This document shows positions 5,251 through 43,491 of a stretch of 64,000 bases of DNA, in pieces. Each line of letters starts with the position of its first letter. Positions within the stretch are counted from its first letter, which is position 1. This DNA is from Alphaproteobacteria bacterium (GTDB lineage Bacteria > Pseudomonadota > Alphaproteobacteria > Micavibrionales > Micavibrionaceae): assembly GCA_009995595.1 (NCBI GenBank), contig JAACPE010000001.1, forward strand, positions 310,001 through 374,000, written 5' to 3'. Under the pieces are notes generated by a model. It did no database searches and had not been told where the DNA came from. It saw nothing but the letters and a program-made list of their open reading frames with translations. The position numbers were made by a program, and so were the translations under genes.

Positions 5251-5280
5251 TTTTTGGCGTTATCAAGGAATAAAAAGACA

Positions 5281-6126
5281 ATGCCTCAACATGAAAAAGA
5301 ATTTGCATCACAATATGCCGTTGTAATCAAGCCAAGAAGCTTTCAGGGTTATTGGAAAGAGATTTGGCAGTTTCGTGAAATTCTTTATATTTTAGCGCGC
5401 CGTGATATCGTTGTGCGCTATAAGCAAACGATTGTTGGCCTGCTTTGGACATTGATTAAACCCCTTTTAACGATGGTGGCCTTTACAATCGTATTTAGTA
5501 AAATCGCCGACTTGCCCTCAACAGGAATGCCTTATCCAGTCTTGGTTCTTGCGGGACTTCTTCCGTGGTATTTCTTTTCTAATACGCTCGGGGAAATGGG
5601 TAATTCAATTGTAAATAATCAATCAATGGTCTCAAAGATTTATTTCCCACGCCTTTTATTACCATTTTCAACAATTTCTGTAGGCCTTATTGATTTACTC
5701 ATCGCGCTGGTTTTGCTTTTTGTTTTGATGATTTTTTACGGTATGGCATTTTCTGTGACGCTCCTTATGCTACCTTTTTTTATGGTATTTTGTGCCTTGG
5801 CTTGCATTGGGCCTGGTCTTTTGTTCGCGGGTATGAATGTTAAATATCGAGATGTGCGTATTGTTATTCCGTTTATAATTCAGTTTGGGCTTTACATCTC
5901 ACCTGTTGGATTTTCCTCAACCTTAGTATCAGAAAATCTAAGAATGCTATATGCCATTAACCCTATGGTGAGCGTTATTGATGGCTTTCGATGGTGTATT
6001 AGTGCAGGGCAAACACCTATATTCTGGCCCGGATTTATGGTTTCATTTGCGGTAACAGCTTTTATGCTTGTTGTGGGCTTATGGTATTTTAGGCGTGTCG
6101 ATAAAACTTTTGCGGATGTGATCTGA
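5281..6126 (+). CDS. wzm: polysaccharide ABC transporter permease (Wzm/TagG family)
   Basis: This is the membrane subunit of an ABC-2 type exporter that moves undecaprenyl-linked O-antigen or capsular glycan across the inner membrane. The 281-residue protein has about six hydrophobic segments, the N-terminal amphipathic region ending in RRDIVVRYKQTIVGLLWT, and MNVKYRDVRIVIPF in the middle, which are typical of Wzm/TagG. The ATG at 5281 is preferred over an in-frame TTG at 5254 because AAGGA precedes it by 11 bases. The ATPase subunit follows after 1 bp. Confidence 0.9.
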   Translation: MPQHEKEFASQYAVVIKPRSFQGYWKEIWQFREILYILARRDIVVRYKQTIVGLLWTLIKPLLTMVAFTIVFSKIADLPSTGMPYPVLVLAGLLPWYFFSNTLGEMGNSIVNNQSMVSKIYFPRLLLPFSTISVGLIDLLIALVLLFVLMIFYGMAFSVTLLMLPFFMVFCALACIGPGLLFAGMNVKYRDVRIVIPFIIQFGLYISPVGFSSTLVSENLRMLYAINPMVSVIDGFRWCISAGQTPIFWPGFMVSFAVTAFMLVVGLWYFRRVDKTFADVI

Positions 6127-6127
6127 T

Positions 6128-7375: not shown

Positions 7376-7380
7376 AAATA

Positions 7381-8121
7381 ATGTTTCAAAAAATTAAAAA
7401 TTTTCTCAAAAAATTCCCTTTTATAAAAAAAGTTTGGAACAGCTATAACAACCTAGTAACGTTGAATGCTCGTCTCACATATTTGGAGAAACGTGTCCAT
7501 AATTTTAGATGGTTTGCTGTTGAACAAGCAGCGGATTATCTTGTTGGTGCGCAAGTTGAAGGGGATTATTGCGAATTTGGTGTCTATAAAGGCGAAACAT
7601 TCGCCCATATGACAAGATATTATGAGGTCTTTCCTGATATGAGATACATAGCGTTTGATTCATTTGAAGGGCTTCCAGCTCCAAAAGGTATCGATAACGA
7701 AAATGGCTATGCGAGCAATTTTCATGAAGGGGAGTTTGCTGTATCTCAAGATCAATTTTTAGAAAATTTAAAATCAAAAAACGTGCCACTTGATCGTGTC
7801 ATAATGGTTAAGGGGTGGTATGATCAAACGTTGAACGATGATACGGCAAATAAGCATAATATCAATAAAGTCTCTTGTGCATGGATTGATTGTGACTTTT
7901 ATGAATCAACTGTTCCTGTTTTGAAATTTCTAACCAAGCGTATATCCGTTGGAAGTATTTTACTTTTTGATGATTGGAAAGTTTATAGAAACCTATCTGA
8001 TAAAGGTCAGCAACTTGCCACTTCAGAATGGCTATCTGCAAACCCAGGGCTAGAACTAAAACCGCTTTTTGAGTTTTCTCATCACGGACAAGCCTTCACT
8101 GTAGCGAAGATCCCACAATGA
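7381..8121 (+). CDS. TylF/MycF-like SAM-dependent O-methyltransferase
   Basis: The 246-residue protein matches the macrocin O-methyltransferase (TylF) family of metal-dependent sugar methyltransferases. Motifs are DYCEFGVYKGET (SAM site), YIAFDSFEGLP and the metal/acidic pair AWIDCDFYEST ... LLFDDW. The ATG at 7381 starts just after the stop of wzt; an in-frame ATG at 7348 would overlap wzt by 28 bp and is less likely. The end overlaps the next start (ATGA at 8118). In this cluster it probably methylates a sugar of the exported glycan, possibly as a terminal cap. Confidence 0.85.
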   Translation: MFQKIKNFLKKFPFIKKVWNSYNNLVTLNARLTYLEKRVHNFRWFAVEQAADYLVGAQVEGDYCEFGVYKGETFAHMTRYYEVFPDMRYIAFDSFEGLPAPKGIDNENGYASNFHEGEFAVSQDQFLENLKSKNVPLDRVIMVKGWYDQTLNDDTANKHNINKVSCAWIDCDFYESTVPVLKFLTKRISVGSILLFDDWKVYRNLSDKGQQLATSEWLSANPGLELKPLFEFSHHGQAFTVAKIPQ

Positions 8122-9053
8122 TAAAACAATGCCCTAATTGCAAGAATCAGACATATTTCGAACAGCCGCAAAAAGTTGATCTATCCCAAATTCTTGATAG
8201 ATGGGAAGCAGAAACACTTGTTCGCTTTCAACCTTTAACAAGGTCGCAGTATGATGGTAAAATATCGCAATTATACTGTTGCTCGACTTGCAGTTTTAGT
8301 GCTTTCATTCCGCCTATGTCAGGAACGCCTGAATTTTATAACGATATAACAATTGATAGTGATTATTACGTCCACGAAAAATGGGAGTTTATAAAAACAC
8401 GCGCTCTTGTGCAAAAACATGCGATAAAGACGCTTTTGGATTTTGGTTGCGGCGGGGGCGCTTTTTTAAAAACAATAACTAAAAAATTCCCTGATATAAA
8501 AGCTGATGGATTTGATGAAAATCCACAAGCCGCAATTTCTTTCAAAGACACAAATATTGGTTTTGTAAATAGTCTGGATAAAAATCGCGGTAAGGCCTAT
8601 CAGATGATTACGGCTTTTCAAATCCTTGAACATGTTGAAAAACCGTTTGCGACCCTTAAGTCACTTCATGACACTTTAGAAGAAGATGGCTTAATTGTTG
8701 TGTCCGTTCCAAATACCATTGGCCCTATACGTCATTACACAGAAGCCCTGACAGAAATCCCGCCACATCATGTTAATCGCTTTTGTTATGCATCATTAAA
8801 ACAGTTTTTGGAAAACGAGAATTTTAAAATTGAAGATGTTTCCTATGAACCACTTTCAAAAATCTTATGGGATTTTTATTTGCCTGTTATGGTTGAAAAA
8901 TCAATGAGCAAAACAATTCTTCAAATATACAAAACGATTAAAGGTCCTAAAATTTTAAACGCTTTCATAAAGCTGCTTAACTTATCGGGTCTAAAAACAA
9001 TTCCTGTCAAAGGACACAGTATTTATATTGTGGCAAGAAAATGTGCGGGATAG
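8118..9053 (+). CDS. class I SAM methyltransferase with N-terminal zinc-ribbon-like motif
   Basis: The N-terminus carries a CPNC pair and a second CCSTC group about 50 residues later, which resembles a small zinc ribbon. The methyltransferase core begins near residue 105 with LLDFGCGGGAFL, followed by MITAFQILEHVEKP, the usual motif of Methyltransf_11/12 proteins. It is translationally coupled to the previous gene and overlaps asnB by 13 bp. The substrate is probably a sugar or lipid-linked glycan of this cluster; no more precise assignment is possible. Confidence 0.82.
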   Translation: MIKQCPNCKNQTYFEQPQKVDLSQILDRWEAETLVRFQPLTRSQYDGKISQLYCCSTCSFSAFIPPMSGTPEFYNDITIDSDYYVHEKWEFIKTRALVQKHAIKTLLDFGCGGGAFLKTITKKFPDIKADGFDENPQAAISFKDTNIGFVNSLDKNRGKAYQMITAFQILEHVEKPFATLKSLHDTLEEDGLIVVSVPNTIGPIRHYTEALTEIPPHHVNRFCYASLKQFLENENFKIEDVSYEPLSKILWDFYLPVMVEKSMSKTILQIYKTIKGPKILNAFIKLLNLSGLKTIPVKGHSIYIVARKCAG

Positions 9054-10852
9054 CAGGATTATATCATGCTGATATTTCCAATGATCGCCAAAAACGATCA
9101 ATAGACGACATGACTCAGAGTATTTCCCCACGAGGTCCAGATGCTCAGGGGATTTATAATGAAGGGAATATCTCCCTAGGGCATCGTTTGTTATCAATTA
9201 TTGCACCGAGCTCATGCTCTAATCAACCAATGCGCCGTGGTTCTCTTATTATTGTTTATAACGGAGAGCTTTATAACTATCGTGAAGAAAAAGAGCGCTT
9301 AGAGGCAAAAGGAATCCTTTTTCAAACCGAAGGGGATACTGAAGTTGTTTTGGCGCTTTTTGAACAAGAGGGCGTTTCAAGTTTCTCACGATTAAATGGT
9401 ATTTTTTCTTTTGCAATATACAACGAAGAGACGGGAACGCTTGTCTGTGCGCGTGACCATTTTGGCATTAAACCCTTTTTATATGCCAAAAGTGGTAAGG
9501 GAATTGTCTTTGCCTCCGAACTTAAATCAATTCTTGCAAGTGGCGTTATAGACCGAAAAGTTTGTAACGAATCCTTATCCTTGCTTTTAAAAAAAGGAAG
9601 TGTTCCACAGCCGTATACAATGGTTGAGGGTGTTCAAAGTCTTATGCCTGGTCATTACATGATCTGCGAAAAAGATGATTTAAAAATTATACCGTATTAT
9701 CAACTCAAACAAAGCAATATCAACTTTAATTCTGATCAGGAATGGCAAGAGGCTATTCATACCGCTATACGCAATGCAGTAAAACAACAACTCATTGCCG
9801 ACACGCCCGTTGGTGCTTTTTTGTCGGGCGGCGTTGATAGCGGTCTGATTGTCGCCTTGATGCGTGAAATTTCTTCTAAGGTAAAAACTTATTCTGTCGG
9901 GTTTGAACATGAGAATGCTTTAGGGCATTATGATGAAACAGATGAGGCGAAAACAGTCGCTGATTTCTTGGAAACAGACCATCAAACCTTTATCGTTTCA
10001 GACTCACAGGCACAGAATGATCTTGTAAAGATTATAAAGGGCTTAGACCACCCAACGATTGATGGGGTGAATAGTTACTTTGTATCACAGGCAACATCAG
10101 CACATGTGCGAGTCGCTTTGTCTGGTACGGGCGCGGATGAAATTTTGGGAGGCTATGCGTGGTTTGAGAATATGCGTTCTTTTGATAACGCGTCTATTTT
10201 CGATAAAGTAAAGTACGCCATAAAAGGGCAGGGATATGTTGAATATTATAATTCACTTCATGCGTGCTTTTCCAATACTGAAGTAAAGTATCTATTAGGG
10301 GATCGCTATAAATCCGTTCCATATCCCATAAAACAAAGATTTTCTTATACCCATGGTGTTGCGCGCACAAGCGATCTTGTGATGGGTAGTTTTTTACAAA
10401 ATCAGCTTTTGCCTGATATTGATACGGCCTCTATGGCGCATGGTCTTGAGGTGCGTGTGCCTTATTTAAATGTAGATTTAACGGAGCTATGTCTCGCTGC
10501 ACCAGACCATCTAAAGCTGGGCATAAAAGACTTCACGGCGCCGCAGGGCAGTTATGCACGCGAAGGGACAAAAAAAGTCTTAATTGATATTGCCTGTGAT
10601 TATTTGCCCGAAGGATTTGATATGCGACCTAAACGTGGTTTCTCAGTCCCAATGGAACGTTGGCTTAAAACAATTTGGAAAAGTGATGTTGAACAGGCTC
10701 TATCTTATGAAACAGTAAAAAATAGAGGGATTTTTGACCCTCAAGCAGTTGAAAAACTAAAGAGTAATGGAGCGCCATGGACGAAGATATGGCTTTTAAT
10801 GGCCATAGAATTATGGTGTCAGCATGTATTATGTGATGATATAACCTCATGA
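9041..10852 (+). CDS. asnB: glutamine-hydrolysing asparagine synthase family amidotransferase
   Basis: The 603-residue protein starts MCGIAG, so after Met removal Cys is the class II glutamine amidotransferase nucleophile. Residues 2 to about 190 form that domain, and the synthetase domain has the PP-loop SGGVDS near residue 260. It overlaps the neighbouring genes at both ends. AsnB homologues inside polysaccharide loci often amidate a sugar carboxylate rather than serve asparagine supply, so amidation of a uronic acid is a reasonable alternative role. The sequence itself does not decide this. Confidence 0.9.
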   Translation: MCGIAGLYHADISNDRQKRSIDDMTQSISPRGPDAQGIYNEGNISLGHRLLSIIAPSSCSNQPMRRGSLIIVYNGELYNYREEKERLEAKGILFQTEGDTEVVLALFEQEGVSSFSRLNGIFSFAIYNEETGTLVCARDHFGIKPFLYAKSGKGIVFASELKSILASGVIDRKVCNESLSLLLKKGSVPQPYTMVEGVQSLMPGHYMICEKDDLKIIPYYQLKQSNINFNSDQEWQEAIHTAIRNAVKQQLIADTPVGAFLSGGVDSGLIVALMREISSKVKTYSVGFEHENALGHYDETDEAKTVADFLETDHQTFIVSDSQAQNDLVKIIKGLDHPTIDGVNSYFVSQATSAHVRVALSGTGADEILGGYAWFENMRSFDNASIFDKVKYAIKGQGYVEYYNSLHACFSNTEVKYLLGDRYKSVPYPIKQRFSYTHGVARTSDLVMGSFLQNQLLPDIDTASMAHGLEVRVPYLNVDLTELCLAAPDHLKLGIKDFTAPQGSYAREGTKKVLIDIACDYLPEGFDMRPKRGFSVPMERWLKTIWKSDVEQALSYETVKNRGIFDPQAVEKLKSNGAPWTKIWLLMAIELWCQHVLCDDITS

Positions 10853-11997
10853 TGTCAGATCAGAATCAAAAAATTAGAATTCTTTTTGTCGGTGAGATCA
10901 TTAGCTCACACGCGCAAAGCTGGATGAGGTTGTTGGATAGAGAGCCACAAAGCTTCGATATTCAATGCTTCACCGTACCGCGCGCACCGTACCCAAAAAA
11001 CAGTCCCTTTAAAAATATATTCGATAAGTTTAGAAAAATAGATAGCCCCAAAATACCTGCGCTTGTTCATTCGAAAATGCTTGAATTTATTATAATGACC
11101 TATAAGCCGCATATTATTCACACATTTGCGGCGTTCCCAACCGTAGCTTTTTATATGCCAGTTTTTAAAAAATATAGGCATAGATTTAAATGGGTTTCGC
11201 AAGTGCGCGGCGGCTCAGATGTTTATATCAATAGATTTGATCCCGTAAAAAATGACATTTTGAGAGATCTCTTTAAAGAGTGCGACGTGCTTATTGCGGA
11301 TAACGAAATAAATTATAACATAGCATCTGAGCTCGGAATTGATCCTTCGAAAAAATGGCACTATGGGATTGCGCCTGGAACAGGAGGCGTTGATCTACTT
11401 GAATTTTCTGCGGCGTTATCACCATCAAAATCTCAAAAACGTGTCATATGGCCAAAGGCCTATGAGGGATTTGAAAGTAAGGGGCTACCTGTTCTTGAAG
11501 CTATAAAAATTGCGTGGCCTAAAATAAAAGGCACGCAATTCATCTTCACCGCAGGGAATGCTGAACTTAATGGACATTTACGCTTTTTACCTAAAGAAAT
11601 CTCAGATCACATTGACGTGCGTGATCGTATTGCTCGCCCTGAAATGCTTAAATTAATGCAACAATCACGCGTTGTAATGGCACCTTCATTATTAGAAGGT
11701 ATTCCTAATACACTTTATGAATCCATGGCCGCGCAGTGCGTTCCTATTTATTCACCGCTTGAGACCTATCAGGATAAGTTTATTGATAATAAGAATATTT
11801 TATATGCGCGTAACCTGTTCCCACAAGAAATCGCCGAGGCACTTGTGACGGCTTTAAATGATGACGTTCTTGCTGATAAAATTGCAGCCGAAAATATCTC
11901 TTATATCGACAAAATAGCCAACCGTAAAAATATTGCTGACAATCTTGTCACACTTTATAAAAATTTAGGGAGAGTACAAAAGAATGCTAATAACTAA
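10849..11997 (+). CDS. glycosyltransferase, GT4-like
   Basis: The 382-residue protein has a GT-B type layout. The N-terminal half starts with IRILFVGEIISSHAQSW. The C-terminal half carries the E-x7-E nucleotide-sugar motif in PSLLEGIPNTLYESMA (around residues 280-295). The start at 10849 overlaps the asnB stop. It should transfer a hexose from a nucleotide sugar to the growing lipid-linked glycan at the inner face of the membrane. Donor and acceptor are unknown. Confidence 0.82.
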   Translation: MMSDQNQKIRILFVGEIISSHAQSWMRLLDREPQSFDIQCFTVPRAPYPKNSPFKNIFDKFRKIDSPKIPALVHSKMLEFIIMTYKPHIIHTFAAFPTVAFYMPVFKKYRHRFKWVSQVRGGSDVYINRFDPVKNDILRDLFKECDVLIADNEINYNIASELGIDPSKKWHYGIAPGTGGVDLLEFSAALSPSKSQKRVIWPKAYEGFESKGLPVLEAIKIAWPKIKGTQFIFTAGNAELNGHLRFLPKEISDHIDVRDRIARPEMLKLMQQSRVVMAPSLLEGIPNTLYESMAAQCVPIYSPLETYQDKFIDNKNILYARNLFPQEIAEALVTALNDDVLADKIAAENISYIDKIANRKNIADNLVTLYKNLGRVQKNANN

Positions 11998-12022
11998 TAA
12001 TTGGGAGACACAATAGGACGTT

Positions 12023-13615
12023 ATGTTTAACCCTAAAATATCGATTATTATTCCTGTCTATAATGGCGTGAACTATATGCGTGAGGCTATAGATTCTGCT
12101 ATCGCTCAGACCTATGAGAACAAAGAAATTATTGTTATTAACGACGGGTCAACAGATGAAGGCCAAACGTTGGCAATTGCTCGCTCTTATGGGGATCAAA
12201 CACGGGTAATTGATAAACCTAATGGCGGCGTTGCCACGGCGCTTAATGCGGGTATTGCCGCAATGCAAGGTGAATATTTTTCATGGCTTAGTCATGATGA
12301 TGTTTATCCAATTGATAAGCTTGAGAAACAAGTCGCCTTTTTACAAACCCTGGAGGATAAAAATACGATCCTTTTTGGTGATTACACAATCATAAATGAA
12401 AAAAGCGAGTTCATGGGAAAATCTGATGTATCAGTTTTAGATACAAAGAACATGATGTTTGAACTCTTCGCCTTTCAATACATGCATGGATGTACGTTGC
12501 TCGTTCCAAAGAATGTGTTTGACCAGGTGGGAGATTTCCCGACTCATTTGCCAACTACCCAAGATTATGACCTTTGGGTTAGGGCTTCTTTACAATTTCC
12601 CTTCGCTTATGTTCCGGGCATTTTTACCCATAGCCGCCAGCACGCAGAGCAAGGAAGTCGTACGCTCACACACAGAAAAGAGCTTATTGGCTGGTACTTA
12701 AACCATTTGACAAAAATATCGCCAGAATGGCTTGATGCACGATATGAAAAGGAGGAGATTGAGGCAAAATATAAGATTTTGCTCCAAAAATTCTCAAATT
12801 TAGGGCTTTGGCCTGTATTTATACGTGTCTTAAATCAAGCGCAGCGTCATTTATCCTTTCAAAAAACGCTCAATTCTGTATGTTTCCTTATCGTATCACT
12901 CATACGATATTACCAAGGATTCCTAAAAGGAGCAGCGATAAAGATGATTCCCCTTAAAATTAAAAACATGCTACGTAAAAACCTGAATGCGCCACAAAAA
13001 CAATCCGGCCCTTCTAATCTGGATTTTATCCATATTTATAAAAAGAACATATTCGGATCACGTGAATCTATTTCTGGTTCAGGCTCAACAATGAGAGAGA
13101 CAACTTATATTCGTGAGGTCTTCCCATCTCTTTTTAAAGAGCTTGAGGTCAAGACACTTCTTGATGTGCCCTGTGGGGATTTTAACTGGATGCGTCATGT
13201 TGATCTTGAGGGTATACACTATATTGGCGGCGATATTGTCCCGCAGCTTATTGCAGATGATAATGAAAAATATGGAAGTGATACGATCAATTTCCGTCTT
13301 ATCAATATTATTAAAGATGACCTGCCTAAGGCCGATGTAATTTTATGTCGTGATTGCCTTGTGCATTTGAATTTTGAAGATGGGATGAACGCCATTCGCA
13401 ACTTTAAGAAAAGCGGATCAAAATATTTATTAAGTACCACTTTCACAGATCGTGATCAAAACGAAGACCTCTTTGGAATTTGGCGGACATTAAATTTACA
13501 AAAAGCACCTTATAATCTTCCTAAACCGCTTAAAATCATCAATGAAAAATGTCCGCAAAAAGGCTTTGGTGATAAGTCACTTGGCCTATGGCGCCTTGAT
13601 GATATAGAAATCTAA
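12023..13615 (+). CDS. GT2 glycosyltransferase fused to a C-terminal methyltransferase
   Basis: The protein has two parts. Residues 5 to about 230 form a GT-A family 2 glycosyltransferase with ISIIIPVYNG, VINDGSTDEG and the acidic LSHDDVYP motif. A linker with a hydrophobic helix near residue 290 is followed by a SAM methyltransferase-like domain from about residue 350 to the end, with LLDVPCGDFNWM near 380, DVILCRDCLVHL, and the C-terminal KSLGLWRLDDIEI. At 530 residues it is about twice a lone GT2. Coupled addition and methylation of one sugar is a plausible role (inference). Confidence 0.84.
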   Translation: MFNPKISIIIPVYNGVNYMREAIDSAIAQTYENKEIIVINDGSTDEGQTLAIARSYGDQTRVIDKPNGGVATALNAGIAAMQGEYFSWLSHDDVYPIDKLEKQVAFLQTLEDKNTILFGDYTIINEKSEFMGKSDVSVLDTKNMMFELFAFQYMHGCTLLVPKNVFDQVGDFPTHLPTTQDYDLWVRASLQFPFAYVPGIFTHSRQHAEQGSRTLTHRKELIGWYLNHLTKISPEWLDARYEKEEIEAKYKILLQKFSNLGLWPVFIRVLNQAQRHLSFQKTLNSVCFLIVSLIRYYQGFLKGAAIKMIPLKIKNMLRKNLNAPQKQSGPSNLDFIHIYKKNIFGSRESISGSGSTMRETTYIREVFPSLFKELEVKTLLDVPCGDFNWMRHVDLEGIHYIGGDIVPQLIADDNEKYGSDTINFRLINIIKDDLPKADVILCRDCLVHLNFEDGMNAIRNFKKSGSKYLLSTTFTDRDQNEDLFGIWRTLNLQKAPYNLPKPLKIINEKCPQKGFGDKSLGLWRLDDIEI

Positions 13616-17988: not shown

Positions 17989-19554
17989 ATGGTTAGTAAC
18001 GCTGGAAATATATTAACGCCAGCACTAAACAAACAGCTGGTTGCCTTGCAGAAAACTGCGAGAGGCATCGACACATCCCAATTGCAACTGGCAACTGGCA
18101 AGCGTGTTAATGATATTACAGATAACGCACAAAGCTTTTTTGCCTCCTTTTCATTAACATCACAGGCAAGTGATTTTAATCGTCTTCTTGACGGCATATC
18201 TCAGAGTATCCGTACTATTCAGCAAGCTGAAAATGGATTGCGCGCTCTCGATCAACTTGTCCGCCGTGCGGATGTAGAGGCGCAGTCCGCGCTCAGTGAT
18301 ATTACAAAGCTCTCTGACATACGCGGGTCAGTGCGTGATCTCATTTTGGCCGATAACCCTGATATGTACTTACAATTAAATGACACAAGCGGCACGACCG
18401 CCATAAACTCAGGAACAGTCGGTAATCCCTTGCGCGGCACCTATACAGGCGGCGTATCCCTAGATGCGGGCAGTTTATATTTTAGTGATAGCGCAACCTC
18501 GGCGTTTTTTGATGGTGTGAATGATCGCGTCCTACTTCGAAATCGACCAGAGCTTAATACCCGCGGATCAGGCTATCCCGAAAAAACAATAGAGCTTTTC
18601 TTTAACGCTGAAGATGTAAATAATGGCCGCCAAGTCCTTTATGAACAAGGTGGCACAAGTAATGCTATATCTATCTACCTTGATAATGGCAGAGTTTATA
18701 CAACGGTACGTGATGCTGGTGATTTTGGTCCCTTTGATATTAGCGCCAGTGTCGAGTCAGGTAAAAGCTATCATGTTGCTCTGACACTCGATTTTCCAAA
18801 TAGAACATTTACGGGTTATTTAAACGGTGAAGTTATTGGAACGGGTGAGGTGACACGGGCGCTCTCCGCACATAGTGGAGCCGGTGCCATCGGGCGCAAT
18901 GAAGGCGGTACTGTTTTTCACGACGGCCCAAATGGCGGTAATGGTGAATATTTCCGTGGCCGAATTTCTGACGTCGCCAGTTATAATGACGTCCTAAGCC
19001 AAGAGCAATTACAAGCCCGCGTAGACGCATCTTTAATAAAAGAAACGCGCGCCGCGCAGGAAGCCGTTCAAAAATTATTAGAGCCGATCAATCCACTTTT
19101 AGAAGATGCGAACTTTCGCGGCGTCAATCTCTTATCGGGTGATAATCTGCGCACAGATTTTAGTATTGATGGGCAATCAAATCTTATTTCAAAAGGGCGC
19201 AATTTTTCATTAGAAGCCGCGGGGATAGGGAGTCTCTATTTTTCAAAACCAAGCAGCTTTAAAGGTAATGTGAACAGCATTTCTAAATTTGCGAGAGACA
19301 TTCGCGATTACAACAGCTCGCTCGCCTCTGATCTCAATATTATCAAAACACGGCAAAATTTTACGGAAAAAACCATTAACACGCTCAAATCAGGCAGTAA
19401 TGACTTAACCCTTGCCGATCAAAATGAGGTCGGGGCAGAGCTGCTCTCGCTTCAACTACGCCAAGAAATTCAGGTTAACACACTTTCTTTTGCCGCAACC
19501 CAACAACAAAGCCTAGCTGATCTGCTATTTTCTGCACCGGGGGGCACCGCCTAA
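17989..19554 (+). CDS. flagellin with inserted LamG/concanavalin-like domain (paralogue 2)
   Basis: The 521-residue protein is a tandem duplicate of the preceding flagellin with the same architecture. The N-terminal flagellin helices (QLQLATGKRVNDITDNAQSF) cover roughly residues 1-120. A LamG-like insert runs from about 122 to 350 (LADNPDMYLQLNDTSG, FFDGVNDRVLL, TIELFFNAEDV, RTFTGYLNGEVIGT, FRGRISDVASYNDVLS). The C-terminal flagellin helices end in QVNTLSFAATQQQSLADLLFS plus a short extra tail. The two lectin domains differ at many loop positions while the strands are preserved, which would allow different ligands. No flaF, flbT or other flagellar gene lies in the window. Confidence 0.88.
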   Translation: MVSNAGNILTPALNKQLVALQKTARGIDTSQLQLATGKRVNDITDNAQSFFASFSLTSQASDFNRLLDGISQSIRTIQQAENGLRALDQLVRRADVEAQSALSDITKLSDIRGSVRDLILADNPDMYLQLNDTSGTTAINSGTVGNPLRGTYTGGVSLDAGSLYFSDSATSAFFDGVNDRVLLRNRPELNTRGSGYPEKTIELFFNAEDVNNGRQVLYEQGGTSNAISIYLDNGRVYTTVRDAGDFGPFDISASVESGKSYHVALTLDFPNRTFTGYLNGEVIGTGEVTRALSAHSGAGAIGRNEGGTVFHDGPNGGNGEYFRGRISDVASYNDVLSQEQLQARVDASLIKETRAAQEAVQKLLEPINPLLEDANFRGVNLLSGDNLRTDFSIDGQSNLISKGRNFSLEAAGIGSLYFSKPSSFKGNVNSISKFARDIRDYNSSLASDLNIIKTRQNFTEKTINTLKSGSNDLTLADQNEVGAELLSLQLRQEIQVNTLSFAATQQQSLADLLFSAPGGTA

Positions 19555-19631: not shown

Positions 19632-20264
19632 ATGACTTTTTCAGCGCGTTTATTGATCGTTTTGTTCTCTGTCTTCCTTATTGCGTGTAATGAAGAAACA
19701 CAAGCGGGCGCAGATGAAGGTCTTTATGCCCCTAAAGCCCCTGCAAATGCCGCTTTTATCCGTTTTGTGAACGTGAGCGACGCTGCTGTAACCGCTAAGG
19801 CTGGCGGTAAGGATTATGGCACAGTCGCGCCTCTTTCTGCCTCAAGCTATTACTTCTTCACAAAAGATAGCGCAGATATTACGGCGGCTGATAAAAAAGT
19901 AACGCAGGCGCTGAAAGCAGGTCAATATTACACCGCTATTCTTGGAGATGATCTAAAAATTATCGAAGATACAGCCAATATAAACCCTGCCAAGGCGACT
20001 TTGGCTCTATACAATTATTCAGATTCCATTATCACGCTGAAGGCCAAAGAGAACACAGCGACAATTTTCAACGAAGTAGCCTCAGGTGATCACACCGCCC
20101 GTGAAATTAATCCAGTTAAAGTTGATCTAACGCTCAATATTACCGGTAATGACACGCCAATGCCAATTGCCCCTATTATTATGGAACGTGAAAATCACTA
20201 CGGCCTTGTTTATAATGGCGAACAAGCCTTCGTTATCACGGCGATTGTTGATACCACAAAATAA
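19632..20264 (+). CDS. algF: alginate O-acetylation protein AlgF (predicted lipoprotein)
   Basis: AlgF works with AlgI, AlgJ and AlgX in periplasmic O-acetylation of alginate. The 210-residue protein has the family's typical length and its opening motif after the signal, GLYAPKAPANAAFIRFVN. The N-terminus is a lipoprotein signal with lipobox LIAC (Cys19), unlike the soluble periplasmic AlgF of Pseudomonas. The body is predicted beta-rich with repeated ALYNYSDSIITLKA-like strands. algI follows with no gap at all, which strongly supports co-translation and the assignment. Confidence 0.85.
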   Translation: MTFSARLLIVLFSVFLIACNEETQAGADEGLYAPKAPANAAFIRFVNVSDAAVTAKAGGKDYGTVAPLSASSYYFFTKDSADITAADKKVTQALKAGQYYTAILGDDLKIIEDTANINPAKATLALYNYSDSIITLKAKENTATIFNEVASGDHTAREINPVKVDLTLNITGNDTPMPIAPIIMERENHYGLVYNGEQAFVITAIVDTTK

Positions 20265-21680
20265 ATGGTATTTTCGTCAAACATCTTTCTGTTTGCGTTT
20301 TTACCACTTTTTTTAAGTGTTTATTATCTAACTCCAAACCAATACCGTTCTTTGCCGATTTTAATTGGCAGTTACATTTTCTATGCGTGGTGGCGGGTTG
20401 ATTTCTTGGCGCTATTCTTTGGGGTGACGTTATGGAACTATTTGATTTATAAGCGTATTATCGCCCCTAATACGAACGGCGCACGCTGGATGAAAATAGG
20501 GGTGGTGGGAAACCTTGCTGCCCTTGGATTTTTCAAATACTTCAATTTTGGCGTTGATAGCTTTAATCTGCTTCTGAGTGAAATAGGCTTTAGCCCAATT
20601 AGCGCCATGCAGGTGATTTTGCCGATTGGAATTTCCTTTTATATCTTTCAGGCGATTAGCTTTCTTATAGATGTGCACCGCAAAGACGCGCCGCATCCCA
20701 AGAATTTTTGGGATTTTGCGGCCTTTATCTCCCTTTTTCCGCAGCTCATCGCAGGGCCAATTTTGCGCTACAAAGACGTGGCAGAGCAGTTTCAAGAGCG
20801 CACGCACACTTTCGATAAATTCTCCGAAGGCGCTTACCGCTTCATGCTCGGCTTTGCGCAAAAGGTCTTGATCGCCGATAGCGTCGCGCCACTTGTCGAT
20901 CAAACCTTTGCCCTCGAAAACCCTACATTCCTTGAAAGCTGGATTGGCGCGCTTGCTTATACCATTCAGCTCTATTTTGATTTTATGGGCTATTCGTCGA
21001 TGGCAATCGGTATTGGCCTAATGATGGGTTTTCGTTTTATTGAAAACTTTAATCACCCTTATATCAGCCGCTCGATTACAGAATTCTGGCGCCGCTGGCA
21101 TATTAGCCTTTCAAGCTGGCTCAAAGACTACCTCTATATCCCCCTTGGCGGAAACCGCAAAGGGCCGTTACGAACTTACATTAATCTATTTCTCACCATG
21201 CTCCTAGGCGGCGCGTGGCATGGGGCGAACTGGACATTTGTGATCTGGGGCGCATGGCACGGCAGCTTGCTCGCGCTGGAACGCCGCATGGGATTTAAGG
21301 ACGTGAACTGGCCAAAAATTATGATGGCGCCGACACTTCTCGCCGTTATTTTGGGGTGGGTTATGTTCCGCGCCGATACGGTGGGGCAGGCCTTTGGCTT
21401 TTATGAGGGGATGATCGGCCTTAACGGCTTTGCCATTAGTGACGCCATGATCTGGCAGTTAAAATATCAGCACTTGGTGTTTTTGGTGCTGGGGTGGTTT
21501 ATTGTCTTCATTCATCCTAAATTCTTTGAATACCGCCAAGCCATTGAGGGCAGCGCCGCATGGCAAACAATCGGCCATCATAAACCCATTATCGCCTGCA
21601 GCGTTATCGGCCTATTTATTTTAGCGGTAACAAAACTCGCCGCAGCAAGCTACTCACCGTTTTTATATTTCCAGTTTTAG
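20265..21680 (+). CDS. algI: alginate O-acetyltransferase membrane protein AlgI (MBOAT)
   Basis: AlgI is the MBOAT-family membrane protein that passes acetyl groups across the inner membrane to the alginate acetylation complex. The 471-residue protein has about ten hydrophobic segments, the EFWRRWHISLSSWLKDYLYIPLGG signature region, and the catalytic-type histidine His319 in GGAWHGANW, close to His322 of the Pseudomonas enzyme. A second WHG follows at His332. Its ATG directly follows the algF stop. The alternative, a PatA/WssH-type MBOAT for another polymer, is made unlikely by the surrounding alg genes. Confidence 0.93.
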   Translation: MVFSSNIFLFAFLPLFLSVYYLTPNQYRSLPILIGSYIFYAWWRVDFLALFFGVTLWNYLIYKRIIAPNTNGARWMKIGVVGNLAALGFFKYFNFGVDSFNLLLSEIGFSPISAMQVILPIGISFYIFQAISFLIDVHRKDAPHPKNFWDFAAFISLFPQLIAGPILRYKDVAEQFQERTHTFDKFSEGAYRFMLGFAQKVLIADSVAPLVDQTFALENPTFLESWIGALAYTIQLYFDFMGYSSMAIGIGLMMGFRFIENFNHPYISRSITEFWRRWHISLSSWLKDYLYIPLGGNRKGPLRTYINLFLTMLLGGAWHGANWTFVIWGAWHGSLLALERRMGFKDVNWPKIMMAPTLLAVILGWVMFRADTVGQAFGFYEGMIGLNGFAISDAMIWQLKYQHLVFLVLGWFIVFIHPKFFEYRQAIEGSAAWQTIGHHKPIIACSVIGLFILAVTKLAAASYSPFLYFQF

Positions 21681-37787: not shown

Positions 37788-38198
37788 TTATTGTTCCAAA
37801 ATTTCAATCAAACCAAATCCCATGATCGTATAGAACGATACATGTCGTCCGCCAAACAAGATGGCAGGTTTAGGCGACGATACGGGGATGACGCGTAACT
37901 CTCTTGCCTCAATTGCCGCAAGGCTTTTTTCTAAATCATCGGTTTCATAACAAGTGTGATAAATAAGTTCGTTGTATTTTTTAAGAATATTATCAAGCGG
38001 CCCTTCTTCCTCACCTTTGGTGATCAGTTCAACAGCAGGTTTTTTCGCGGCGGTGCACAGGCGCAAATTTACTTTTTGCTCTGGGTCATAAAAGCGCATG
38101 CCTTCGTCATAGCCAAGGCCTGTTAGAAACTTGAGAGCTTCTTCTTCTTTTTTGAGCGCAAGGCCCATGTGATGAAAAGTAAGGCCAAATTCGTTCAT
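37788..38198 (-). CDS. VOC-superfamily protein (glyoxalase / methylmalonyl-CoA epimerase-like)
   Basis: The 136-residue protein shows the paired beta-alpha-beta-beta-beta modules of the vicinal oxygen chelate fold. Likely metal ligands are His in FHHMGLA, Glu in AVELI, His in YHTCYE and Glu in LIEILEQ. Such proteins act as isomerases, lyases or dioxygenases on small acids. Its ATG overlaps the stop of the methyltransferase gene by one base, so it is the last gene of the ACP-FkbH-MBOAT operon. A role in making or repairing the transferred acyl group is only a guess. Confidence 0.75.
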   Translation of the reverse strand: MNEFGLTFHHMGLALKKEEEALKFLTGLGYDEGMRFYDPEQKVNLRLCTAAKKPAVELITKGEEEGPLDNILKKYNELIYHTCYETDDLEKSLAAIEARELRVIPVSSPKPAILFGGRHVSFYTIMGFGLIEILEQ

Positions 38199-39136
38199 TA
38201 TACTTTTTCTAAAACATAGGCGACGTTAATGGAAAGCTCTGCTGCTTGGGATTCTTCTAATGTTTTGCCCTCATAGGGTAAACGCAACGGTGTCTTGATT
38301 TTAAGCCCAGTGCCTTCAATCATTTTTTCTAACTCATCGGTTGAGCGCCATAAAAAGATATGATCAACTGCAGGGGCGTTAATGCAAGTCGTGACATAAA
38401 TATAGGCATCATCTTTAGCAAGCTCGGCAATACGTTTCAAAAAAACATCGGGTTGTTCGACATGCTCTAAAACTTCACCCATGATAATGGCATCATACGT
38501 GCCAGCTTCGAGTTCTTTGGCCTCAAGGAAGTCCATCAAACGAAGCTCATACTTGTCTTTAAATTCGGGTTTGAAATGCTCTAAGATTGCGCCAGTTTGT
38601 TCAATACTGGCGGGGGAGATATCAATCCCCAGAAAATGATCAAATGACCCTAGCTCCATGGCCTTCATCAGGTAATACCCATGTCCAGGGCCGATATCCA
38701 AATACTTACCGCCGCGATCACGCGGGGCTGTCTCAACAAATAAACGACCCATGTCCAAATGGTTTGGCCAAAGGAATGAAGTGATAGCGAGGCCATACAT
38801 ATATTTGTTCATGTAATCCTTGTCGTCGTATACGTGTCCCGCGACATCGGCGTAAGATTTATGGCGGTATTCTTTATGCTTCATAAAATAAAGCTGCTCG
38901 CGGAAGGTATCGCCAACAATCGTTAAATATGAATCGGCCATATAGGGCAGGTTTTGCCCCTTGCTCTGACAAAATTCGAGGTAGCGGTCAAGGATATCAA
39001 TTTCTTCATCTGTGACATGATCTAGTGCCTTCGTGATGAAGCTTTTATGCATCGGGTTTTCATCAAGGATAATATCAATCAGTGTTGATACATTATCTGG
39101 TAATGTTTTTTGTGTGAGGTCTGCGGCAGAAGTCAT
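38198..39136 (-). CDS. class I SAM-dependent methyltransferase
   Basis: The N-terminal 130 residues are helical and without a known motif. The SAM-binding core starts near residue 143 with KYLDIGPGHGYYL and continues with HFLGIDISP and DAIIMGEVLEHVEQP, typical of Methyltransf_11-type enzymes. It follows the microprotein gene by 18 bp and overlaps the VOC gene. In the methoxymalonyl-ACP pathway an O-methyltransferase (FkbG) works on the FkbH-derived unit, so methylation of a glyceryl-type group is conceivable. This is inference from context. Confidence 0.78.
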   Translation of the reverse strand: MTSAADLTQKTLPDNVSTLIDIILDENPMHKSFITKALDHVTDEEIDILDRYLEFCQSKGQNLPYMADSYLTIVGDTFREQLYFMKHKEYRHKSYADVAGHVYDDKDYMNKYMYGLAITSFLWPNHLDMGRLFVETAPRDRGGKYLDIGPGHGYYLMKAMELGSFDHFLGIDISPASIEQTGAILEHFKPEFKDKYELRLMDFLEAKELEAGTYDAIIMGEVLEHVEQPDVFLKRIAELAKDDAYIYVTTCINAPAVDHIFLWRSTDELEKMIEGTGLKIKTPLRLPYEGKTLEESQAAELSINVAYVLEKV

Positions 39137-39154
39137 ACGGGCATCTTTCTTGTG

Positions 39155-39265
39155 TTAAAAGCCTTGGTAGATAAATGGTATTTCAATCGCGCTAGCGAGT
39201 GCGGCGGCTATGATTGTAACGGCAAAGAATAGCCCTGTCAGCATTTCTAATAAGTATTTATTCAT
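39155..39265 (-). CDS. DltX-like 36-residue membrane microprotein ending FIYQGF
   Basis: This short gene encodes 36 residues: a short N-terminus (MNKYLLEM), one hydrophobic helix (about residues 9-27) and the C-terminal end EIPFIYQGF. Its ATG overlaps the stop of the preceding DltD-like gene as ATGA, which strongly suggests real, coupled translation. In Gram-positive Dlt operons the small protein DltX has one helix and a conserved C-terminal FIYxxF-type motif whose Tyr is thought to carry the acyl group between DltB and DltD. The ending here fits that pattern. I infer the same relay role. Confidence 0.72.
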   Translation of the reverse strand: MNKYLLEMLTGLFFAVTIIAAALASAIEIPFIYQGF

Positions 39266-40374
39266 TGTTTGCCCTGTAATTGGTTGAGTTCGCGCGTAAT
39301 ATAGGCTGGTAAGTCGCCGCTATCGCTTAAATGGAGATAATCTGTGAAGGTGAGAGTGGTTACAATATCATTAGGGATTGATAAAAAGCGGATATTATCG
39401 GCCTTATTTTGATTTGCGATTATGTTGATTTGATCGATCACGCTTTGTAACGCAACGCGCGCCTCTGTACGCTCTAACTCTGGCGAGGTAGGGGCAATAT
39501 ATATGAGTGTTGGGATGTTGCTTTGTTTTATATGGCTAAACAAATTATGCAGGATTTTTTGCCCCCAAACACTCTCGGAGATATTGTTTTGTGCCATCGC
39601 TTTAATTTGCCATTGTTTTGCATCAAAGGCGGTGAAATCAGTTTTGGTTTCATATCGTTGTGATATCCAAAATAAAAGCGGTTGATCATAAGAGAGTGTC
39701 TTGGCTTTCTTTTCTTGTGCCGCCTTCGGTATAGCAGGTTTGTCAGGTTGTGCGAGTTTGAGGAAGTCATAGCCATTAGCAATAACAGTGTGATGCCGTC
39801 CAACTGCACCCCAAAGCATATTTCCGGGCGAAGCAAGAAGAGGAATAAACGGCCAATCGGTTTGGTTCATCCATAAAGACACGCCGCTATTCATCATATT
39901 TGTTTTGAAGAAAGCCGATTTATCATTCATCACCCAAAACGGGTTTATGACGACAATCATGGCTTTAGGGCGGCGTTTAATGGCATCAAGAGTCATTGTG
40001 TAGCTATCCAGTAGACGGCTTGCCATCTTGATAGATACAGCGCCTTCAGGCGGAAGAAAGCCATAAGAGCCGTTATTTATAATAGCAAGTGATGATCCAC
40101 CAACCCAAATAAGACTGTCTGATAAATCTTTCTTATCAAGGCGCATATACCGTGGATCTGATGGCGTGCTGGCTAGCGGCGTTAAGTTTTGCGCTGTCAT
40201 TTCTTTTGTGAAGGGAAGTTGTGGGGGCATCTTGGGTGCTACAAAATGGGCAATTACTAAAAAAATAAATGTCCATAAGATGATGCGGATGATGCTTGCT
40301 CGATTAGGGGTAAGGAAAAACGGCGTAGCGAATTTTTCTAACCATTTTAAATCATGGGGTGCATTTAAATTCAT
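39262..40374 (-). CDS. DltD-like membrane-anchored SGNH acyltransferase
   Basis: The 370-residue protein has one N-terminal membrane helix (about residues 25-47) and an extracytoplasmic SGNH-like domain: LIWVGGSSLA as nucleophile block (Ser) and FTDYLHLSDSG as the DxxH block near the end. This arrangement is that of DltD, which transfers the acyl group to the final acceptor. The start lies 3 bp after the MBOAT stop, and its own stop overlaps the microprotein start. Overall similarity to DltD is at the level of layout and motifs; direct homology would need a structure comparison. Confidence 0.72.
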   Translation of the reverse strand: MNLNAPHDLKWLEKFATPFFLTPNRASIIRIILWTFIFLVIAHFVAPKMPPQLPFTKEMTAQNLTPLASTPSDPRYMRLDKKDLSDSLIWVGGSSLAIINNGSYGFLPPEGAVSIKMASRLLDSYTMTLDAIKRRPKAMIVVINPFWVMNDKSAFFKTNMMNSGVSLWMNQTDWPFIPLLASPGNMLWGAVGRHHTVIANGYDFLKLAQPDKPAIPKAAQEKKAKTLSYDQPLLFWISQRYETKTDFTAFDAKQWQIKAMAQNNISESVWGQKILHNLFSHIKQSNIPTLIYIAPTSPELERTEARVALQSVIDQINIIANQNKADNIRFLSIPNDIVTTLTFTDYLHLSDSGDLPAYITRELNQLQGKQ

Positions 40375-40377
40375 GAT

Positions 40378-41586
40378 CTACAACCCCACCAGTGACAAAT
40401 AAAACGCAGCTGCTTTTTCCAGTGGCATGACAAGAAGGGGGAAGCTGAGGGCAACAAAAAGATATGTTCCTAAAATCTTCCCCCAATTTATAATTGAATG
40501 AGCCTCAGTAACTTTGCCGCGCTTATCGCTGTGATAACGATGTATTATAAGGCCTATGCCATGATAGAGCGCAAATAAAACCATGCCCCATGAAATATCA
40601 TGCCAGAGCGCAATGACAAAAATTGTACCGAGTGTTGCAATATATTGTGTTTTTTTTCGGTATCCACCAAGGGGGATAAAGGCGTTGCGTTGGGCAAAGC
40701 GCGACAGGCTCATGTGCCAGTTGTTCCAAAAATCCGCAATGTTGCGGCGAAAATAAGGGAAGCAGAAATTTTCTTTGAGGCGATAGCCATAAAGCTGCGC
40801 CGACCCAATTGCAAGGTCTGAAAAACCAGAAAAGTTTAGATAAAAGAACCATGTGTAAATAAATAAGAAAGCCCAAATTTTGAGCGTAGGCGCGGTGTCA
40901 TAAGTTTGAAAAATAACAGCGCTTTTTTGTAAAATGGCGGCGAGCAATAGCACCTTAATAAGACCAAAGCTGATACGCATGAACCCTTCATACAGATCAT
41001 TGGCATCAACACGTTTATGGTTTTGAATTTCTTCATATTCAATAATCGGGCCAACGACCTGAACGGGCGGAAAAAAACCATAAAAGAAAATCTTGTTAAG
41101 AGGCATTGCATCGAATTTGCCAAGCCATGTTTTTATGAGTAAATCAGCGCCCCTAAAAGTCGCAAAAGATAGGCCGATTGGTATAATGATGGCGCGGGCT
41201 AAATCTACCTTCCACAATGTATCAGACATCATCTTGATACCTTCATTGGTAAGGAGATTAAAAAGCGTGGTGAAATCTTCATACGCCAATTTCCAGCCGA
41301 TCATGGGTGCAAGCATAAGAATGAGGCATAGCCAAAAAACGGGTGTATTAAATTTATGCTCATTTGTTCGCGCAACAATCTGTTGCAAGATGAATGTGAC
41401 CGACCAGAAAACAAGATAAAAAAGAACAAGGCGCGGCGCGATAAAATAAAGTAAATACGCTCCAGATAACGTCATTACTGTTTCACGAAAAAAAGCATTT
41501 TTTATAAAATGAAGAAGAGAAACAAGCACGAGGGATAGGGCCAGTAGATCAATAAAAAATGACGCGCTGTTTATTTCGGCAAACAT
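40378..41586 (-). CDS. MBOAT-family membrane acyltransferase, DltB-like
   Basis: The 402-residue polytopic protein has the MBOAT signature IADFWNNWHMSLSRF, followed by the conserved-His region VIALWHDISWG, and about ten membrane segments. Its length is that of DltB rather than AlgI (471 here). It begins on the base after the FkbH gene ends. It should accept an acyl group from the carrier protein at the cytosolic side and pass it across the membrane. AlgI-type acetylation is unlikely because an acyl carrier protein and an FkbH loader are encoded with it. Confidence 0.88.
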   Translation of the reverse strand: MFAEINSASFFIDLLALSLVLVSLLHFIKNAFFRETVMTLSGAYLLYFIAPRLVLFYLVFWSVTFILQQIVARTNEHKFNTPVFWLCLILMLAPMIGWKLAYEDFTTLFNLLTNEGIKMMSDTLWKVDLARAIIIPIGLSFATFRGADLLIKTWLGKFDAMPLNKIFFYGFFPPVQVVGPIIEYEEIQNHKRVDANDLYEGFMRISFGLIKVLLLAAILQKSAVIFQTYDTAPTLKIWAFLFIYTWFFYLNFSGFSDLAIGSAQLYGYRLKENFCFPYFRRNIADFWNNWHMSLSRFAQRNAFIPLGGYRKKTQYIATLGTIFVIALWHDISWGMVLFALYHGIGLIIHRYHSDKRGKVTEAHSIINWGKILGTYLFVALSFPLLVMPLEKAAAFYLSLVGL

Positions 41587-43254
41587 CTAAACCGCCAGTT
41601 TTAATGTGATTGTGACCTCATCAGGGGCAGGCTTGATGTCTTCGATATTACAAAACCACTCATCGGCATTGGCGATGAAGTTGTGATCAGGGTAGAGCGT
41701 TCGGACAAGGGCATTTTTAGGTGTTTCGATATAACGCCCTTTAAGGATTTTAGCGCCCTTTGTCTCCACAGCCTGTGCAATTTTATTCAAGAACGATGTT
41801 TCCGCACCACGCCCCAAGACACGGCAGCTCATCATCAGGCTATCAATATGCCATGTGACAGGAGTTTCTTTTTGGACTATGGCAACGCCAACAAGGCCAT
41901 ATTCACCAAAGCGGTCTTTGATCGTCATGCCCATAACAAGCGTATTCTCATCACGGCTTAACATTTCAACCTCATCTTGCGTGCGGCGGATTGTGGTGAG
42001 GTTGAATTGATTTGTTTTGTTAATAAGCTGCGTGATGCGTCCTATATGGTGCGGTTCTGCTTCAAAAATATCAATCTCAAGGCCGAGAGATTTTCTAAAT
42101 TCTTCTTCGGATAGCCCTGCGCTTTGAATTTTGCGTTTGCTTTCAGCCATCATCATATCGGCGCGTTTTTTATCCTCGGCTGAGAGTTCCGCAATATCAA
42201 ACAAGCCTGTATTGGTAAGCAGGGCAGGTAAATCGGCAAGTTCTTCGGGCACTAAAAAACAGTCCACCATAGGCAGACGCTCCCGCACTTCAGCGATTTC
42301 TTTGGGGTTGTCGTCTACAAAGACGCACGCATCAACGCCAATGTTTAAGTCATCTGCTATCGCCTGAATACTCTGAGCTTTAGATTCCCAATGCACCTGC
42401 CAGCAGGAGATGTGATCGCGTTTCAGAGCCATGGCGTCATGTTTATCAAAGACCTCAAAGACATCGGCTTCGTTATTTTTGCTGGCGATGGCAAGAAATA
42501 ATCCTTTGCTGCGTAAATGTAGACAATATTTTTGAAAATCGAGATAGGCTTTTCCTGGAAAATCTTGGCCAATTTGAATGCCGCCAAGGCCATCTTCACC
42601 GATTATACCGCCCCATAATGTGTTATCACAATCAAGGACAATGCATTTTTTCGCCGCAATAGTTTGCGCGGCAATGATACGGGTGATTTGGGTCGAGGCT
42701 GTTTTCCAAAAGGATAAGGCATAAGGTTGTTTGTACAAATACCAGCTTCGCGCATCATGTGAAACGTCATGCCCTGCAGCATTTAAAAGCCCAGCAATAT
42801 TAAGTGTTTTTATGCCATGTATATTTTTAATGCCCTCAGCCCACCGTGAGAAATAAGACTGATATAGCGCCAAACCTGTTTCAGGCTGTTCTAAATCGCC
42901 AGCATGAAATTCTGGAATAGACGGGTAGGGTGGATTGGAAACAATCAATGTGCCTGTGTAATTGTCACGCAAAGTCTTTATGCTTTGCAACAACTCATCA
43001 ATGTCTTGGACACATTGCTCGGCGTTCATGGGATCGGGGGTGATGTCCTCAATGCGCCAAAGAATGACCAGGATATCTGTTTTTGTGCCTAAGATGGGCT
43101 CTGGGTTCATGCCTAATTGGATAAGCTGATTATAGTGTGCGACTGCAAAATCAGGTTTTTCAAAACCTTTTGCCATTAAATCTTTGGAAAGCAGGCGGGT
43201 GAGGGGATCAACAGTAAAGGATCCAGCAAGGCCTATGGTGTAGGCGCGTGCCAT
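41587..43254 (-). CDS. FkbH-like HAD protein (predicted glyceryl-ACP synthase)
   Basis: FkbH-family enzymes take D-1,3-bisphosphoglycerate, remove phosphate and load the glyceryl group on the phosphopantetheine arm of a carrier protein. The 555-residue protein has the family layout. There is an SGNH-like N-terminal domain (GLAGSFTVDPL). A HAD domain with VLDCDNTLWGG (DxDxT) lies near residues 205-215 and has VFVDDNP later. A C-terminal GNAT-like domain follows (INKTNQFNLTT, DRFGEYGLVG, CRVLGRGAE). It starts 3 bp after the acp stop. The encoded carrier is the expected partner. Confidence 0.9.
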   Translation of the reverse strand: MARAYTIGLAGSFTVDPLTRLLSKDLMAKGFEKPDFAVAHYNQLIQLGMNPEPILGTKTDILVILWRIEDITPDPMNAEQCVQDIDELLQSIKTLRDNYTGTLIVSNPPYPSIPEFHAGDLEQPETGLALYQSYFSRWAEGIKNIHGIKTLNIAGLLNAAGHDVSHDARSWYLYKQPYALSFWKTASTQITRIIAAQTIAAKKCIVLDCDNTLWGGIIGEDGLGGIQIGQDFPGKAYLDFQKYCLHLRSKGLFLAIASKNNEADVFEVFDKHDAMALKRDHISCWQVHWESKAQSIQAIADDLNIGVDACVFVDDNPKEIAEVRERLPMVDCFLVPEELADLPALLTNTGLFDIAELSAEDKKRADMMMAESKRKIQSAGLSEEEFRKSLGLEIDIFEAEPHHIGRITQLINKTNQFNLTTIRRTQDEVEMLSRDENTLVMGMTIKDRFGEYGLVGVAIVQKETPVTWHIDSLMMSCRVLGRGAETSFLNKIAQAVETKGAKILKGRYIETPKNALVRTLYPDHNFIANADEWFCNIEDIKPAPDEVTITLKLAV

Positions 43255-43257
43255 GGT

Positions 43258-43491
43258 TTAGACCTCAATGCCTTTATCTTTGAGCGCTTTACGGGCTAGG
43301 CCAATGCTAGACATTTTCATGATTTCTTTAGTTGAAAGCTGACATTTGAACGTGTCTTCAATCGCGGCCACAAGGTGCATGGCGGCAAGGCTATCCCATG
43401 CGCCGACGCTTTCTGGTGTGCTGTCATCATTAAGAGTTTCGGCGTTGACCTCTAAAACATCGGCAAAAAGATCAATTAACGGGTCTGACAT
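43258..43491 (-). CDS. acyl carrier protein
   Basis: The 77-residue protein is a discrete carrier protein with the phosphopantetheine attachment serine in GAWDSLAAM. It is the first gene of the minus-strand operon and would carry the glyceryl unit made by the FkbH protein, like FkbJ in polyketide pathways or DltC in teichoic acid alanylation. The ATG at 43491 has AAAAGGA seven bases upstream; an open extension upstream has no support. Only 61 bp separate it from the divergent DUF502 gene. Confidence 0.9.
   Translation of the reverse strand: MSDPLIDLFADVLEVNAETLNDDSTPESVGAWDSLAAMHLVAAIEDTFKCQLSTKEIMKMSSIGLARKALKDKGIEV

Follow-up and report, generated by a model that had tools for sequence, protein, structure and literature searches.

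The window considered here is a 64,000-nucleotide stretch of contig JAACPE010000001.1, from an alphaproteobacterium of the family Micavibrionaceae with a genome of 1.99 Mb. Seven of its minus-strand genes, spanning positions 43491 to 37788, probably form an operon for Dlt-like transmembrane O-acylation in which an FkbH-family enzyme is the loader. In the direction of transcription they encode an acyl carrier protein (ACP), FkbH, an MBOAT protein, an SGNH protein, a 36-aa microprotein, a methyltransferase and a VOC protein, with intergenic gaps of +3, 0, +3, -4, +18 and -1 bp. All seven were found at the positions and on the strand given by the first-pass annotation, made from the sequence alone, and family models identify the ACP, FkbH, MBOAT, methyltransferase and VOC products. 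By means of this system, the cell surface may be decorated with glycerate or methylglycerate.

The proposed FkbH loader and the Dlt-like transfer half

The operon shares with Dlt (DltA, DltC, DltB, DltX and DltD, for the D-alanylation of teichoic acids) a carrier, a short DltB-like MBOAT, a separate microprotein with an FxYxxF motif and a DltD-like SGNH protein. It differs in having FkbH for the adenylating enzyme DltA, in the added methyltransferase and VOC genes, and in its Gram-negative host; dlt loci of the D-alanylation type occur in some Gram-negatives (Bordetella, Photorhabdus). Furthermore, its ACP and MBOAT fall under the DltC and DltB cut-offs and its microprotein has no DltX match. 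In its working the operon would resemble Dlt; its loader, and scores below the curated cut-offs, keep it outside that system, and it is a variant of the Dlt/MBOAT-SGNH kind.

The FkbH protein (41587..43254, minus strand; 555 aa), a HAD-IIIC acyl loader and proposed glyceryl-ACP synthase, scores 282 bits against TIGR01686, above the curated cut-off of 146.65, and carries the DxDxT motif as LDCDNTLW. The gene of the discrete ACP lies 3 bp upstream (43258..43491, minus strand; 77 aa, with a WDSL phosphopantetheine site) and its product matches PF00550 at 39.3 bits and the DltC family model PRK05087 at 13.8 bits, below the cut-off of 68; its start was taken as ATG, whereas the list of open reading frames extends the frame to a TTG at 43539. 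No AMP-binding/adenylation protein of the DltA type is present among the seven genes, to which the search for DltA was confined. The earlier claim that FkbH occupies the place of the loader is supported, the operon having no adenylation enzyme. The same seven genes contain neither a polyketide synthase (PKS) nor a non-ribosomal peptide synthetase (NRPS) by Pfam, no dehydrogenase or dehydratase by family models, and neither of the two dehydrogenases of the methoxymalonyl-ACP cassette (FkbG-K).

The loader half is completed by a SAM methyltransferase (38198..39136, minus strand; 312 aa, PF13489 (Methyltransf_23) 63.1 bits), a candidate for O-methylation of the acyl group on the ACP, and by the VOC/Glyoxalase_4 protein (37788..38198, minus strand; 136 aa, PF13669 57 bits), a putative acyl-ACP epimerase that scores 39.2 bits against the methylmalonyl-CoA epimerase model, below the cut-off of 114.95. 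Because only these two proteins, and no dehydrogenase, accompany FkbH and the ACP, O-methylglyceryl-ACP would be the simplest product of the cassette. In polyketide clusters, FkbH-like proteins with discrete ACPs have been assigned the formation of glyceryl-ACP from 1,3-bisphosphoglycerate, a role called "likely" for that study's own enzymes (PMC7489565; this and the other papers are cited from the parts of their text that were available).

The same relay could instead carry another acyl group, with FkbH loading a different phosphorylated three-carbon acid, or with the methyltransferase and VOC protein making a product other than methylglycerate, such as an acyl of lactyl type or one methylated on carbon. 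The evidence on FkbH substrates is at the level of the family, and a MaoC-like protein stands beside FkbH in one relative (locus L107). Furthermore, the residue between the Asp residues of DxDxT is C, A or L among relatives, and a conserved Cys there was accordingly dropped as a mark of glyceryl transfer. Against this, glyceryl loading is the role assigned to FkbH-like enzymes with discrete ACPs, and the operon has no dehydrogenase or dehydratase, so that we consider a different acyl group unlikely.

The MBOAT protein (40378..41586, minus strand; 402 aa) scores 66.2 bits against the MBOAT model (cut-off 27) and 98.8 bits against the DltB equivalog TIGR04091, below its cut-off of 375. Its predicted fold is DltB-like by a fold comparison in which no AlgI or PatA structure appeared, so that it does not weigh DltB against AlgI. 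The MBOAT C-terminus bears a fused hexapeptide in 17 of 17 labelled AlgI-type sequences and in four of seven others without FkbH, but in none of the 13 "dltx" MBOATs (that of the window, ten relatives in the order, Haliea and Acidimicrobiales). In the MBOAT tree, which was built without the proteins of genomes G012 and G009 and the contig-cut one of locus L119, these 13 form one clade (100/100) apart from every labelled AlgI-type sequence. On the missing fused motif and the separate clade, an AlgI-type acetyltransferase was rejected as the identity of this MBOAT; a grouping with AlgI had been one of the outcomes that the first-pass annotation named as refuting its reading.

The SGNH protein (39262..40374, minus strand; 370 aa) consists of one N-terminal transmembrane-like segment and a soluble domain that is presumably periplasmic. 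It has no Pfam match above cut-off; its predicted fold best matches DltD, and 13 homologues share without exception both Ser residues in the [GD]SS block and, in the DxxH block, the Asp and the His. Alignment of this family with three other candidate SGNH proteins by hhalign gave probabilities of 0.4-1.6%, too weak to use, and the fold comparison served better.

The microprotein gene (39155..39265, minus strand) overlaps the SGNH gene by 4 bp and encodes 36 residues with one transmembrane-like window and the C-terminus FIYQGF, for which we propose the role of a DltX-like Tyr acyl shuttle. The ending F[IV]YQ[GQ]F is found at 13 of 13 orthologous loci, and the dN/dS is about 0.06-0.31 for the 15 of 21 pairs with computable dS, several of which are near saturation. 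The microprotein is under purifying selection and, conserved at all these loci with low dN/dS, is more than a chance reading frame. The DltX model matches none of 14 microproteins, a comparison to which 36 residues give little power. The residue following the shuttle Tyr is Phe in 17 of 17 labelled AlgI-type sequences and Gln in 14 of 14 aligned microproteins. With DltB-like and DltD-like predicted folds and a DltX-like shuttle motif, the transfer half agrees with the Dlt-like relay first proposed for it.

In the proposed mechanism, FkbH would take the acyl phosphate of 1,3-bisphosphoglycerate, remove the 3-phosphate and leave a D-glyceryl group on the phosphopantetheine of the ACP, in keeping with FkbH chemistry; this glycolytic mixed anhydride would supply the activation energy, in place of an aminoacyl-adenylate or acetyl-CoA. 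Once on the ACP, the glyceryl would be O-methylated by the methyltransferase and perhaps epimerised at C2 by the VOC protein, whose weak resemblance to methylmalonyl-CoA epimerase prompts this guess. The architecture of the last two steps is visible in the operon and their chemistry is our proposal: the DltB-like MBOAT would move the acyl group through the membrane onto the Tyr of FIYQGF, and the Ser of the DltD-like SGNH protein would then take it and esterify a hydroxyl group on a glycan in the periplasm or at the cell surface.

Orthologous loci and the loader cassette as a module

An orthologous MBOAT is encoded by 13 of 142 genomes of the order (E < 1e-90; next match 3e-36), with FkbH, the SGNH protein, the microprotein and the methyltransferase at each of the 13 loci. 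The ACP is found at 12, the contig of the 13th stopping within FkbH, and the VOC protein, by BLAST, at nine; the operon of G012, split across two contigs, was counted once. Flanks and gene order differ at six of the 13 loci: G122 and G125 have the microprotein ahead of the MBOAT, G026-G028 have FkbH in inverted orientation, and in G139 the methyltransferase gene lies between FkbH and the MBOAT. The MBOAT, SGNH and microprotein genes stay together despite these changes. Two loci (L041 10475-12166 and L043 10356-12035) have a protein of 559-563 aa encoded between the methyltransferase and the ACP, and Pfam gives no match for the copy in L043.

A scan outside the order recovered two further occurrences, both in metagenome-assembled genomes (MAGs) and both subject to possible mis-binning. 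The Haliea MAG holds the complete operon with its gene order unchanged, plus a second SGNH gene; the two SGNH genes are adjacent (L055 5004-7518) and perhaps serve two acceptors. The Acidimicrobiales MAG has MBOAT, SGNH, microprotein and methyltransferase genes on one contig and ACP, FkbH, VOC and methyltransferase genes on another, and its MBOAT and FkbH both fall inside the clades of the window's proteins (support 100/100 and 97/100); unless the contigs were mis-binned, the two halves have thus been inherited together without being linked. In the class (385 genomes) and phylum (398) samples, which overlap and include the window's own genome, the four best candidates of each genome were scored, and the best other MBOAT match reached 180 bits versus 669 for the own protein.

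The loader cassette is more widely distributed in the order, where FkbH (E up to 1e-20) occurs in 24 of 142 genomes, the methyltransferase in 23, and both in 22. In G123, G124, G127, G132 and G134, of which G124 and G127 are incomplete (84% and 77%), the ACP, FkbH, methyltransferase and VOC genes are kept, with no match to a dltx-type MBOAT and with this SGNH protein not found; the window-type SGNH protein is absent from 12 of 14 genomes queried and present in G122 and G125. At L092, the cassette is followed by an 867-aa gene for a peptidase M1, apparently unrelated. The expectation of a one-to-one linkage of cassette and MBOAT is thus false. The first-pass annotation had named homologous loci without the MBOAT or SGNH genes as refuting its reading, and this occurred in part, in the form of cassette-only loci, so the cassette is not exclusive to this transferase and its acyl-ACP must serve another use too. 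Four of the cassette-only genomes (G127 was not included) have FkbHs nested within the dltx-type clade of the FkbH tree, a placement that makes loss of their transfer half probable.

Cassette-only loci, and the position of the two halves on different contigs in the Acidimicrobiales MAG, would also suit a reading in which the halves are separate neighbours: the MBOAT, SGNH protein and microprotein would be an acetyl-CoA-dependent O-acetyltransferase, acetyl-CoA being the donor for PatA (PMC12148441), and the ACP, FkbH, methyltransferase and VOC protein would supply a cytoplasmic sugar N- or O-acyltransferase. However, all 13 genomes with this MBOAT also hold FkbH and the methyltransferase, the split shuttle microprotein with DltB and DltD folds is an arrangement of the carrier-protein type, and the MBOAT clade is apart from the labelled AlgI-type sequences, all of which makes separate functions a distinctly unlikely explanation.

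FkbH beside MBOAT genes in the class

Within the class, FkbH was found in 34 of 385 genomes, at 40 places, 38 of which were examined (left out were the window's own locus and G446, with a frame of 5,455 aa). At 15 of these 38 loci an MBOAT is found no more than 9 kb away (midpoint to midpoint), each with an ACP match, for which the chance is P about 1.6e-12 if a 3 Mb genome is assumed to hold six MBOATs; not all 15 are independent because they derive from 14 genomes, some of them close kin. FkbH beside an MBOAT is therefore commoner than the first-pass annotation had thought.

The shuttle motif is fused to the MBOAT at 12 of the 15 loci (in L110 Tyr replaces the first Phe). L107 instead has a microprotein with FFVYQNF, and a neighbouring protein there with the motifs GDSL and DHVHL narrowly misses the Pfam cut-offs; L048, from genome G121 of the order, is arranged in the same way. 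At L114 the microprotein ends in FEYRVF and no SGNH protein is recognised, and L119 is truncated by a contig end. On pSymB of Sinorhizobium meliloti (L104 3343-9224), VOC, MBOAT (fused FLYQGF), SGNH-like, ACP and FkbH genes adjoin capsule-export genes. The SGNH-like gene there has a GGST motif only and no Pfam match, and its existing annotation is TonB-dependent receptor; at L088 a GDSL match below cut-off lies near a fused-motif MBOAT. No SGNH partner is found in the neighbours of L104, L109, L112, L129, L131 or L140, and this partner is mostly unproven for the fused-motif loci.

The capsule-export genes of the Sinorhizobium relative bear on a further possibility, namely lipid or natural-product tailoring, in which the substrate of the MBOAT would be a small molecule or a lipid of the membrane and not an envelope polymer. 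Lipids and proteins are also among the substrates of MBOATs, and the LPCAT3 and PORCN folds were among the matches of the window's MBOAT; in the open-licence literature, FkbH was met together with an O-acyltransferase only in a paper on the natural product suomilide, from the part of it available. The lack of PKS and NRPS genes in the operon, and a DltD-like SGNH partner and Tyr shuttle typical of envelope acylation, point with the Sinorhizobium locus to an envelope polymer, and tailoring of lipids or natural products appears improbable.

Short MBOATs are also accompanied by adenylation-domain loaders, in the ordinary Dlt style, at L084, L046 and L085, so the transferase appears to be modular as to its loader. 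The microproteins end in LRYAHF in L046 and FRYAGF in L085; both Dlt-like loci (L085 6937-13163, L046 3771-9981) belong to Pseudomonadota-type genomes and include sulfotransferases, and L085 also a pyridoxal phosphate (PLP) decarboxylase.

A single origin of all FkbH-linked MBOATs is rejected (approximately unbiased (AU) test, p 0.0013). One clade of the microprotein-type MBOATs (13 dltx and two dltx2 sequences) is not rejected (AU p 0.199), nor is the same clade with DltB and L085 added (AU p 0.141). DltB, on a long branch, is placed with L048 and L107 and not with the window's clade, with weak support.

Relation to known acylation systems

As a tentative wider proposal, FkbH-loaded MBOAT systems may be a widespread and undescribed class of envelope acylation, in which 1,3-bisphosphoglycerate would directly give ACP-bound glyceryl, to be methylated and epimerised at C2 while on the carrier and then moved across the membrane by a Tyr shuttle that is part of the MBOAT in some systems and a separate microprotein in others. 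FkbH and MBOAT would have been paired on two or more occasions, and bacterial surface polysaccharides that bear glyceryl or methylglyceryl groups could owe them to such systems; a possible example is gellan, whose L-glycerate has been known since 1986 (cited in PMC4432689 and PMC9104527). The odds are slightly lowered because the SGNH partner is mostly unproven in the fused type. If the proposal is true, the relay takes whatever acyl its loader places on the carrier, glycolysis can feed surface decoration with no need of a separate ATP-dependent ligase, and the enzymes put forward here for glyceryl substituents can be tested directly, Sinorhizobium meliloti being one suitable organism.

The AlgI/PatA-type MBOAT-SGNH acetyltransferases of alginate, peptidoglycan and cellulose are likewise Gram-negative systems with an MBOAT, an SGNH protein and a Tyr shuttle, but their hexapeptide is fused to the MBOAT and an acyl-CoA donor is assumed for them (PMC12148441), whereas the window has a split motif and encodes an ACP and its loader. 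According to the available part of the same paper, MBOAT-SGNH pathways outside Dlt have no carrier protein and no DltX-like microprotein; the loci with FkbH, MBOAT and microprotein look like Gram-negative exceptions on both counts, and FkbH-ACP genes beside fused-motif MBOATs suggest that MBOATs of this type, too, may depart from the rule of an acyl-CoA donor. We found no open-licence paper joining FkbH with Dlt, a scope that is no proof of absence, and FkbH with an MBOAT and an acyl carrier protein was found in that literature only in the available part of an aeruginosin review.

The polyketide systems for glyceryl- and methoxymalonyl-ACP share with the operon FkbH, a discrete ACP and a methyltransferase; the operon differs in lacking FkbI/FkbK-type dehydrogenases and a polyketide synthase, and its product apparently goes to a membrane acyltransferase. 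The flagellar glycosylation locus of Campylobacter jejuni, compared with the window's cassette by description only, likewise includes an FkbH-domain gene and a gene annotated as an epimerase; the locus has been linked to a surface glycan that carries methylated glycerate (PMC7099621, PMC3068675), and is a precedent for such a group. There the group sits on flagellin pseudaminic acid, and the available text mentions no MBOAT relay. Dimethylglyceric-acid-pseudaminic acid is present on the flagellin of strain 11168, and none is seen in strain 12664, in which the FkbH-domain gene cj1302 is a pseudogene, or in strain 12661, without the "epimerase" gene cj1301 (PMC7099621). These strains differ elsewhere too, and the authors draw no link to cj1301 or cj1302 in that text; the gene shown to be necessary for the modification is cj1295 (PMC3068675).

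Two other regions of the window concern surface glycans or O-acylation. The genes at 2033-13615 form a polysaccharide cluster, with sugar epimerases and dehydratases, a Wzm/Wzt-type ABC export pair, two methyltransferases, an asparagine-synthase-like protein and glycosyltransferases, and this cluster is a candidate source of the acceptor glycan. At 19632-21680, directly after a flagellin-like gene (17989-19554), an AlgF-family protein and an AlgI-type MBOAT with a fused FLYFQF are encoded, which looks like a second, ordinary O-acylation pair.

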